DNA of 39,825 nucleotides from an uncultured Erysipelotrichaceae bacterium (GTDB lineage Bacteria; Bacillota_I; Bacilli_A; RFN20; CAG-826): contig CADCPN010000006.1 of assembly GCA_902803375.1 (NCBI GenBank), positions 1 to 39,825 of the forward strand, written 5' to 3'. The stretch's first letter is position 1. Each line of letters begins with the position of its first letter. Under the pieces are notes generated by a model. It was not told the DNA's origin. It was given only the letters and a program-made list of their open reading frames with translations, and ran no database searches. A program made the translations under genes and the position numbers. This document shows, piece after piece, positions 37,903 through 39,825 of the stretch.

Positions 37903-38208
37903 CTACGATCCTTCGGGATGGGCATGCGGGCATAATCGATGCTGCTGCTTTGAAGCCATAGAATGTCGGCTTTTTCTTAGAACTTTTACCTCTTTTCTTA
38001 ATTCCGTGAGATAAAAGGTCCCCCCCTTAGGGTGCAATCTAATGCCTCTTATTGATTTTGCGTCGCTCGACCTGAGAAAGCGCATTGTCAAACGTCCCGT
38101 CAAAGCAGTAACTTCATCGAAATGGATCGGGGGCGAAACCATCACGATCAGAAAGGCGGTTCCAAGAAGATGAAATACCATATTTGCTTTATAACCGAAC
38201 TTTTTCAT
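37903..38208 (-). pseudogene. Possible decayed gene between the kinase and the ATPase cassette
   Basis: A 101-codon minus-strand frame begins inside the left repeat of the ATPase cassette and reads HFDEVTALTGRLTMRFLRSS and GGTFYLTELRKEVKVLRKSR. A second minus-strand frame over the same bases also looks protein-like but contains stops. The two cannot both be real, so this is probably decayed DNA, possibly disrupted when the cassette arrived. No ribosome-binding site or family recognised. This accounts for the 433-base gap 37814-38246. Confidence 0.25.
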
Positions 38209-38213
38209 ATAAT
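38184..38213 (+). promoter_or_regulatory. Promoter of the ATPase gene, lying in the left terminal repeat
   Basis: -35-like TTGCTT (38184-38189), 18-bp spacer, perfect -10 TATAAT (38208-38213). The -10 is in the centre of the left 41-bp repeat; transcription would start near 38220, within the repeat's right arm. Confidence 0.6.
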
Positions 38214-38232
38214 AACTAAGAAAAGTTCGGTT
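38192..38232. repeat. Left 41-bp palindrome-ended repeat of the ATPase cassette
   Basis: It begins TAACCGAACT and ends AAAAGTTCGGTT. The arms AACCGAACTTTT and AAAAGTTCGGTT (38193-38204, 38221-38232) are perfectly complementary. The 16-base centre differs from that of the right copy and holds the ATPase -10 box. Confidence 0.85.
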
Positions 38233-38246
38233 TAGGAGGAAATTTC

Positions 38247-39509
38247 ATGGAACAGCTGTACAAGCGCGAGGCCTATCTTGAGAAGATCAGGCCTTTCTAC
38301 GACCTGCCCGACGTTATCAAGGTCCTCACGGGGGTCAGGAGGTGCGGGAAATCCTGCATCATGGAGATGATACGCGAGGAACTTGTGGGGAAGGGCGTGC
38401 CCGACAGGAACCTGCTTTATATCCACCTCGATCGAAGGCCATACAAAGGGATAAGGACGCCCGATAAGCTCGAGGAGGCGATAGACAAGGGATTCTCCGA
38501 CGCTTCGGGCCTCAAGTACCTCTTCATCGACGAGATCCAGAACGTGAAGAACTTTGAGGAGGTCGTCAACGCCTACCGCGAGGAAGGGGACTACTCGATC
38601 TTCGTCACGGGGAGCAACGGGTACCTCCTCTCTGGCCAATTGGTCACCAAACTCACGGGGCGATACCTTGAGTTCGAAATCCATACGCTTTCCTTCAAAG
38701 AATACGAGGAGATGAAGGCCCAGTATGGCAAACCCATTGATCCCAATTTGGACACGGAATTCGCCTCCTACGTCATCGAAGGGGGATTCCCTCTCACCGT
38801 GAGGATCGACGAAGGGGAAGCAAAGAGGGCCTACGTCAAAGGGGTCATCGAAGAGATCTACGAGAAGGACATCAAAAAGAACAAAAAGATACGGCAGAGG
38901 GCCCTTTTCGACACCATCCAGACCTACATCGTCAACAACTTCGGCGCCACGACCTCCCTGAAGGCGTTATGCGGGCGTTTGGAGTCCGCCCTTGGCAGGA
39001 AGGTGAGGAAGGAGACGGTCTACAACTACCTCCAAATCCTTCAGGACGCCAAGATTGTCTTGAAGTGCAGGCGGTTCGACCTCAAGAGCAAGCGCTCCCT
39101 CAACGGCGAGGAGAAGTACTACCTATCCGACCTCAGCTTCTACTTCGCAAGCAACGTAGACAATAGAATCAACTACGGCCCCGTGCTGGAGAATATCGTG
39201 TACCGCTACGCGAGGATGATGGGCTATGAGGCTAGCGTCGGCAGGATCGGAAATCTCGAGGTCGACTTCATCCTCCGCGACCAGAGACAAGACTACGCCT
39301 ACGTCCAGGTCGCCCAGACCATCATGGCCGGGCCAGTCAACGAGAAGGGGGTTCCGCTCACGGAGGAAAGGGAATACCGCCCTCTGGAGTCGATCAAAGA
39401 CAACTACCCAAAGTATCTTTTGACCATGGATCATCTTTTGCAAAAAAGGAACGGGATCAAGCATGAGAACATCGTGGCTTTCCTCAAAGAGGAGAAAGCG
39501 TTCGAATAA
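38247..39509 (+). CDS. AAA_14/DUF4143 family ATPase in a repeat-bounded cassette
   Basis: A 420-residue protein. The N-terminal AAA_14 ATPase domain has Walker A GVRRCGKS (29-36), Walker B YLFIDEIQNV (91-100, D95/E96), FVTGSNGYLLSG and LTGRYLEFEIHTLSFKEY. A winged-helix-like middle follows (SALGRKVRKETVYNYLQILQ). The C-terminal DUF4143 domain, of the restriction-endonuclease-like fold, reads NLEVDFILRD (336-345) and YVQVAQ (352-357), with Gln where nucleases have Lys. The ATG follows TAGGAGG. Gly GGG and Arg AGG codons are frequent, unlike the GGC/CGC of neighbours, which indicates transfer. Its TAA lies in the right repeat. Family functions are poorly known; the cassette shape suggests mobility. 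Confidence 0.92.
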   Translation: MEQLYKREAYLEKIRPFYDLPDVIKVLTGVRRCGKSCIMEMIREELVGKGVPDRNLLYIHLDRRPYKGIRTPDKLEEAIDKGFSDASGLKYLFIDEIQNVKNFEEVVNAYREEGDYSIFVTGSNGYLLSGQLVTKLTGRYLEFEIHTLSFKEYEEMKAQYGKPIDPNLDTEFASYVIEGGFPLTVRIDEGEAKRAYVKGVIEEIYEKDIKKNKKIRQRALFDTIQTYIVNNFGATTSLKALCGRLESALGRKVRKETVYNYLQILQDAKIVLKCRRFDLKSKRSLNGEEKYYLSDLSFYFASNVDNRINYGPVLENIVYRYARMMGYEASVGRIGNLEVDFILRDQRQDYAYVQVAQTIMAGPVNEKGVPLTEEREYRPLESIKDNYPKYLLTMDHLLQKRNGIKHENIVAFLKEEKAFE

Positions 39510-39547
39510 CCGAACTATTTTCACCATTAAATGGTAAAAGTTCGGTT
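39507..39547. repeat. Right 41-bp palindrome-ended repeat of the ATPase cassette
   Basis: Exactly the same length as the left copy, beginning TAACCGAACT (its TAA is the ATPase stop codon) and ending AAAAGTTCGGTT. The centre contains ACCATT-A-AATGGT, so the whole unit folds into a longer hairpin than the left one and could act as a terminator. Confidence 0.85.
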
Positions 39548-39680
39548 ATGGAATAGATTTTTAGGATGGAAGACCTGCATTCGTTTCATTTAAGTCTTTA
39601 TCTATTTAGGAACATTTCAAATATCGTATTATGAGTATTAGCGAAACAAGTTTTTCTGAGTTTTAGGGGATTTTGTACTA

Positions 39681-39825
39681 TTAATCCTCTTCCCTGACTA
39701 CGAGCTTATTCTTGCGAGGACGTCCTCTCATCCCTTTTGTGGTTTTCCTAGCAACGTATTCCGGGGCGCATTCCTCGGGTATCTCGAACCCGAAAGCCTC
39801 GCATACCTTGATTTGGCTTCCGATG
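39681..39825 (-). CDS. C-terminus of an unknown protein with AT-hook-like tail (5' truncated by window edge)
   Basis: A minus-strand frame enters at the window end and stops at TAA 39683-39681. The last 47 residues include IKVCEAFGFEIPEECAPEYV and a basic end MRGRPRKNKLVVREED. RGRP is the core of an AT-hook DNA-binding motif; such tails occur in some transposases and chromatin-type proteins. Codon use (AGG, GGG, CCC) resembles the ATPase gene more than the core genes. It may be a transposase or another cargo of the same foreign segment; not identifiable from this part. Confidence 0.6.
   Translation of the reverse strand, partial: IGSQIKVCEAFGFEIPEECAPEYVARKTTKGMRGRPRKNKLVVREED

Follow-up and report, generated by a model that had tools for sequence, protein, structure and literature searches.

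A palindrome-bounded AAA_14/DUF4143 ATPase gene as a probable member of a widespread family of single-gene mobile units

PDC-S01 is a candidate phage defence that ranks as the fourth most common defence across prokaryotes (PMC12988326), and in rumen genomes it is the single locus encountered most often (PMC13356809); validation is pending for most PDCs (PMC12988326). Here, we describe a 39,825-nucleotide stretch of DNA from an uncultured Erysipelotrichaceae bacterium (contig CADCPN010000006.1; hereafter the window), the end of which is occupied by an ATPase gene lying between two palindromes. The PADLOC PDC-S01 profile PDLC04787 matches this ATPase at full length (residues 1–416, E = 2.8e-128). 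As with PDC-S01, the locus consists of a single gene of the same protein family, highly abundant among genomes from rumen and gut and encoding an ATPase fused to a PD-(D/E)XK-like domain (PMC12988326); the window subfamily departs from the PDC-S01 label in its degenerate nuclease motif. In the open-licence literature we found no account of a cognate palindrome, unit boundaries or self-recognition for PDC-S01, nor a link between DUF4143 and palindromes; DUF4143 itself hardly figures there.

Single genes with palindromic sites near both ends, in which site and enzyme are matched, are also known from the REP/RAYT (TnpA-REP) and IS200/IS605 systems. The window unit differs from both in its enzyme, an AAA+/winged-helix/DUF4143 protein rather than an HUH/Y1 transposase by Pfam, PHROGs and NCBIfam, and in its palindromes, which are longer and combine a fixed 45-bp spacing with a variable centre. 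The palindromes are moreover present in one or two copies per genome and are not dispersed as in REP/RAYT, which rules out a dispersed REP-like repeat. An earlier note on this DNA had likened the logic of the locus to REP/RAYT; the likeness extends to a single gene with matched site and enzyme, and ends at the HUH enzyme and the dispersed palindromes, both of which are missing here. In the Tn7-like TnsA/TnsC systems, an AAA+ ATPase, a winged helix and a restriction-endonuclease-like fold act on element ends. The window unit, by comparison, is one gene with no DDE transposase (TnsB), combines the three domains in one protein, and has palindromic rather than multi-site ends.

We propose that the window locus belongs to a family of single-gene mobile units that is widespread, each unit comprising a palindrome (P), a promoter and the ATPase gene (G); a second palindrome often stands at the stop codon. 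We consider this reading probable, and denote the arrangements as P-G, P-G-P and lone P. In the window, the upstream palindrome is AACCGAACTTTT + 16 nt + AAAAGTTCGGTT and the downstream palindrome is ATAACCGAACT + 22 nt + AGTTCGGTTAT; both are perfect in their arms, share AACCGAACT/AGTTCGGTT, and have unlike centres (Table 1). The upstream/downstream repeat score of the gene is 24, as compared to a 99th percentile of 18 and a maximum of 26 among 616 control window pairs. The exact window arms with a 10–30 nt spacer were found only at these two sites in the 1.67-Mb genome, and a reversed control pattern returned 0 sites. Codon use of the ATPase gene is atypical: AGG accounts for 16 of its 30 arginine codons, other genes have 0–7 AGG codons each, and its codon likelihood is second lowest among 22 genes. 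The framing of one AAA_14/DUF4143 gene by palindromes with common arms, the stop codon within the right palindrome and the unusual codon use had all been claimed in the earlier note and stand. The -10 box that it assigned to the left unit is present as TATAAT in the left centre; a consensus promoter scan of the locus called no promoter because the -35 element is weak.

The palindrome recurs beside such genes in many genomes, contrary to one of the outcomes that the earlier note had named as refuting its reading. Homologues were gathered from the window's genus and from many phyla, those at 54–63% identity belonging to Bacillota, Spirochaetota, Kiritimatiellota and others; the sequences compared come almost entirely from draft assemblies of uncultured organisms, with one genome per species. 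Isolates that bear the gene include Oribacterium sinus, Thomasclavelia saccharogumia and Floccifex porci. In nearly all homologues, the gene is preceded by a palindrome of constant geometry that measures 45 bp from TTAA to TTAA; in its arms of 12–18 bp, the outer TTAAsG is common and the following six or seven bases are lineage-specific. With palindromes called at ≥12 of 16 pairs, an upstream copy was detected in 74% of 95 loci and a downstream copy in 17%, relative to 1.7% of control windows (n = 1271). Overall, the downstream palindrome is a minority feature carried by about 17–25% of homologues, the window among them, so framing at both ends, which the earlier note had taken as the rule, does not generalise. 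Where present, the downstream copy is close to the stop codon, often overlapping it, at a distance of up to about 60 nt, or of about 90 nt in locus L206. In an independent sample of 397 other genomes, about 20 of 23 intact homologues had an upstream palindrome, and one locus, L216, carried the same palindrome class as the window, CTAAACCGAACT...AGTTCGGTTTAG. A gene-blind pattern search of these 397 genomes returned 10 matches, all with a spacing of exactly 21 (17–25 allowed), six of which adjoin or frame an ATPase gene. The copy number is two in the window's genome and one or two elsewhere.

The anchored palindrome profile positions T/A tracts ~7 bp and A-tracts ~31 bp from the centre, so that the site reaches past the 41 bp originally noted; repeat units of about that length are indeed seen, within a 45-bp core that extends to about 75–78 bp with the flanking A/T tracts. 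A promoter follows directly to the right of the palindrome in homologues, with the -35 TTG at +46 and TATAAT at +69; the palindrome is thus usually upstream of the -35 box, and in the window it overlaps the -10. The position upstream of the -35 box, the fixed length and the phased A-tracts make a double-stranded protein-binding site likelier than a hairpin, and the earlier wording of "terminal hairpins" is probably wrong. An RNA hairpin or terminator is disfavoured as well, by the usual location 5' of the -35 box and by the A-tract centre and flanks; a terminator scan at the window stop codon found weak stems only.

To delimit the transferred DNA, we compared 24 pairs of copies with 85–98% DNA identity in unrelated surroundings, leaving out pairs with longer synteny (L045/L047, L054/L061 and the L053/L056/L057 group) or contig-end cuts. 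The common DNA starts within 14 nt of the palindrome's TTAA in 21/24 pairs; it ends within 27 nt of the stop codon in 21/24 pairs, and just past the downstream palindrome in the other three. Likewise, a 5.2-kb query around L093 was matched by 10 compared genomes, at 80–94%, only from the palindrome to the stop codon. Copies that are nearly identical and share their boundaries although their surroundings are unrelated are expected of a mobile element, and these comparisons support the minimal mobile unit suggested in the earlier note. Judging from these sequence boundaries, the transferred unit is in all likelihood the palindrome together with the gene, P-G. The gene does not keep to one locus, contrary to the other refuting outcome named in the earlier note, and 12 of 31 genomes in the window's genus carry it; the homologue tree, with nine host-phylum and 16 host-order changes, gives a hint of transfer. 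In genome G014, the gene sits between pepP and glpK within an island of about 4 kb that holds two ATPase genes and other DNA; pepP and glpK are directly adjacent in many relatives, with no palindrome between them.

Palindromes also occur alone, away from the gene (L137, L138, L141, L142, L147, L148, L255, L256 and others); the lone palindrome L142 shares with L086 a flank of only about 16 and 20 nt. In the internally deleted remnants L258 and L259, the deletion starts at the palindrome's right edge. Separately, the lone palindromes L255, L256 and L137, from Acetatifactor-type and related genomes, adjoin the same NUDIX-like gene, with the palindrome upstream in L255 and downstream in L137; this could represent a P-NUDIX-P passenger unit.

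Across 92 loci, arm distance correlated with protein distance most strongly for the winged helix (r = 0.68; AAA 0.55, DUF4143 0.53), and partial correlations (winged helix given AAA, 0.46; AAA given winged helix, -0.03; DUF4143 given winged helix, 0.00) demonstrated that the AAA and DUF4143 domains contribute nothing once the winged helix is accounted for. In a dereplicated set of 58 loci, controlling for the remainder of the protein, the partial correlation peaked sharply at residues 246–267 (0.46–0.47), around the predicted recognition helix (255–267), and the value for residues 250–268 was reached by none of 2000 random 19-column sets. In the 14 P-G-P pairs conforming to the 45-bp frame, the palindrome arms at the two ends of one locus are 89% identical as compared to 54% between loci, even with diverged centres, and the orientation is direct in 14/14. 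The specific computed co-variation of the arms with the recognition helix, at residues about 246–267, suggests that each ATPase very probably recognises its own palindrome through this helix, which retains the self-recognition claimed in the earlier note.

For the window ATPase, Pfam returned AAA_14 (E = 5.6e-31, 107.7 bits, curated cut-off 27) and DUF4143 (E = 3.2e-12, 46.9 bits, curated cut-off 28.1) as the only families above cut-off; PHROGs and NCBIfam gave 0 matches. The AlphaFold2 model is confident, with a predicted local distance difference test (pLDDT) of 87.5, and the order of helices and strands together with the fold matches places a predicted winged helix between the two domains. 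The best fold matches include SSO1545, Orc1/Cdc6 on DNA, and RuvB, with template modelling (TM) scores of only about 0.3–0.5. The archaeal AAA+ ATPases SSO1545 and PABY2304 (PDB 2fna, 2qen) and Orc1/Cdc6, the structure of which was solved bound to origin DNA, share the progression from AAA+ to winged helix; the relationship does not extend to sequence, a search of the PDB with the window ATPase giving 0 matches at E ≤ 0.01. Within the DUF4143 domain, the catalytic residues of the PD-(D/E)XK type are incomplete: D340 is invariant in the aligned subfamily and ExK is replaced by QxA/S, whereas the paralogues L005 and L006 of the same genome retain ECK/EFK. This pattern points to a nuclease that may be inactive, altered or partner-dependent in the window subfamily, catalysis with a displaced lysine being possible.

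Table 1. Features of the ATPase locus in the window.
Feature	Position	Strand	Remarks and basis
Upstream palindrome	38190..38234	none	45-bp frame; 12-bp perfect arms at 38193-38232; geometry via 45-bp sites of homologues
Downstream palindrome	39506..39549	none	11-bp perfect arms; stop TAA 39507-39509 inside
TTGCTT, weak -35	38184-38189	+	sequence
TATAAT, -10-like box	38208..38213	+	centre of upstream palindrome; sequence
AGGAGG ribosome-binding site	38234..38239	+	directly 3' of upstream palindrome; sequence
AAA_14 - winged helix - DUF4143 ATPase, 420 aa, PADLOC PDC-S01	38247..39509	+	profile matches; AlphaFold2 pLDDT 87.5
AAA_14 ATPase domain, residues 24-153	38316..38705	+	Walker A GVRRCGKS, Walker B LFIDEIQ
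Winged-helix recognition helix, residues 255-267	39009..39047	+	part co-varying with palindrome arms
DUF4143 nuclease-like core	39189..39314	+	E315, E338/D340, Q354; QxA for ExK; alignment

A model for the unit can be put forward. ATPase protomers, perhaps paired on two half-sites, would bind the palindrome through their winged helices; the bound ATPase would control its own promoter, which the palindrome abuts or overlaps, and would mark the palindrome as the unit's end or attachment site. A break at the left edge of each of two palindromes in direct repeat would release P-G and leave a lone palindrome; insertion at a lone palindrome would restore P-G-P, and insertion elsewhere would give P-G. 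The direct orientation of all 14 readable pairs fits such interconversion. We infer these steps of cutting and joining, for which either the ATPase, whose nuclease domain is unusual, or host or other recombination may be responsible; that the ATPase itself drives movement is conceivable, though we lean slightly against it. The broader proposal, that AAA_14–winged-helix–DUF4143 ATPases are the mobility enzymes of an unrecognised class of single-gene elements, driving excision and insertion at a cognate 45-bp palindrome, is more tentative still. Mobile and self-regulating, posed as alternatives in the earlier note, both fit the data and are not alternatives; autoregulation is likely a second role of the palindrome.

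Several observations weigh against the mobile-unit reading. Genomes usually have a single copy, which is not the pattern of active insertion sequences; the downstream palindrome is absent from most units, so that two ends are not needed for the gene to persist; and the nuclease motif is degenerate (D..QxA versus D..ExK). More distant homologues have 35-bp palindromes of another geometry, and the examples examined of distant plasmid homologues (Acinetobacter, Lactobacillus, Enterococcus) had no clear 45-bp palindrome. An empty/occupied pair at nucleotide resolution was not found, the pepP–glpK interval in the genus being a larger island; flank comparisons for an empty site in the genus and in Acetatifactor met flanks that were unconserved or islands that were too large. 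Among the compared loci, neither a movement event nor a circle nor a precise target-site duplication was seen, and half-palindromes at the 3' end of P-G units were not generally enriched, with scattered half-arms only.

The strongest rival is that the palindrome serves only as an autoregulatory operator through which the ATPase represses or activates its own promoter. On this view, ordinary horizontal transfer, together with homologous recombination, would have spread the gene, and the downstream palindrome would be a second operator or a duplication relic. The location of the palindrome immediately upstream of the -35 box, or over the -10 in the window, and its presence upstream in nearly all homologues and downstream in a minority are what an operator would produce, and the recognition-helix co-variation is equally expected. 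However, an operator role gives no account of transferred DNA that spans palindrome to stop codon, of a matched palindrome at the stop codon in many lineages, or of lone palindromes away from the gene; we regard it as unlikely to be the whole explanation.

Less probable again, and by some distance from an even prospect, is a single-gene anti-phage defence with an autoregulated promoter, whose patchy distribution and transfer would stem from the turnover that is usual among defence genes. The full-length PDC-S01 match, the abundance of that family and an architecture of AAA and PD-(D/E)XK-like domains suited to defence all argue for it. The neighbours at 13 loci, by inspection and with no family scan, are nevertheless mostly housekeeping or accessory genes or other ATPases rather than defence islands; the palindrome boundaries go unexplained, though defence is compatible with mobility, and both can be true. 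Viral contigs, of which 2.9 million were searched, are almost devoid of palindromes of this type, two classes giving 0 and 1 exact matches, which also rules out the palindrome as a phage target, and a related-locus search found no viral homologue of the window ATPase. Barely credible is a horizontally acquired gene flanked by repeats that are terminator-like by convergence or arose by chance, with no link between ATPase and palindrome: AT-rich intergenic DNA is rich in short inverted repeats and short two-copy families often match by chance, but the control windows, the fixed 45-bp spacing in the gene-blind search, the cognate arms and the helix-specific co-variation contradict this.

Among the most abundant prokaryotic defence systems, PDC-S01 is counted yet remains a candidate, and the palindrome units offer a concrete alternative to defence; part of the PDC-S01 phage-defence candidates may be a mobile gene family. 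The P-G units supply this family with a predicted DNA target and a predicted specificity code that relates recognition helix to palindrome arm. If the mobile-unit proposal holds, much of the abundant "PDC-S01 defence system" would consist of mobile, possibly selfish genes, with specificity residing in helix/palindrome pairs.

Related arrangements were observed around other ATPase genes. The genus loci L020, L022, L025, L026 and L027, at 34–41% identity, have paired ~35-bp palindromes at both gene ends, e.g. CGTTACAAA-N17-TTTGTAACG. In the window's own genome, a 466-aa ATPase gene outside the window subfamily (L007, G000:C50:1996-2442) is framed by TTACACAAAT...ATTTGYGTAA repeats, which lie just upstream of the gene and 1–45 nt past the stop codon; the framed arrangement may not be confined to the DUF4143 subfamily. 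A DUF4143-type ATPase with intact ECK, also in this genome (L005, G000:C64:17874-18245, minus strand), lies between two ~105-bp direct repeats, and the repeat seems to contain the 3' end of the upstream gene with its terminator, as if the target had been duplicated on insertion. ATPase units seem to gather near each other: at L151 (G014), L147 (G041), L068 and L097, different ATPase subfamilies stand side by side, some near tandem AATCGGAAGAATGT repeats. Beyond the downstream palindrome, the sequence at window positions 39650–39825, the contig end, is repeated at about 81–90% in G009 and at the own-genome contig ends C34 and C49, and probably represents an insertion-sequence end at which the assembly broke.
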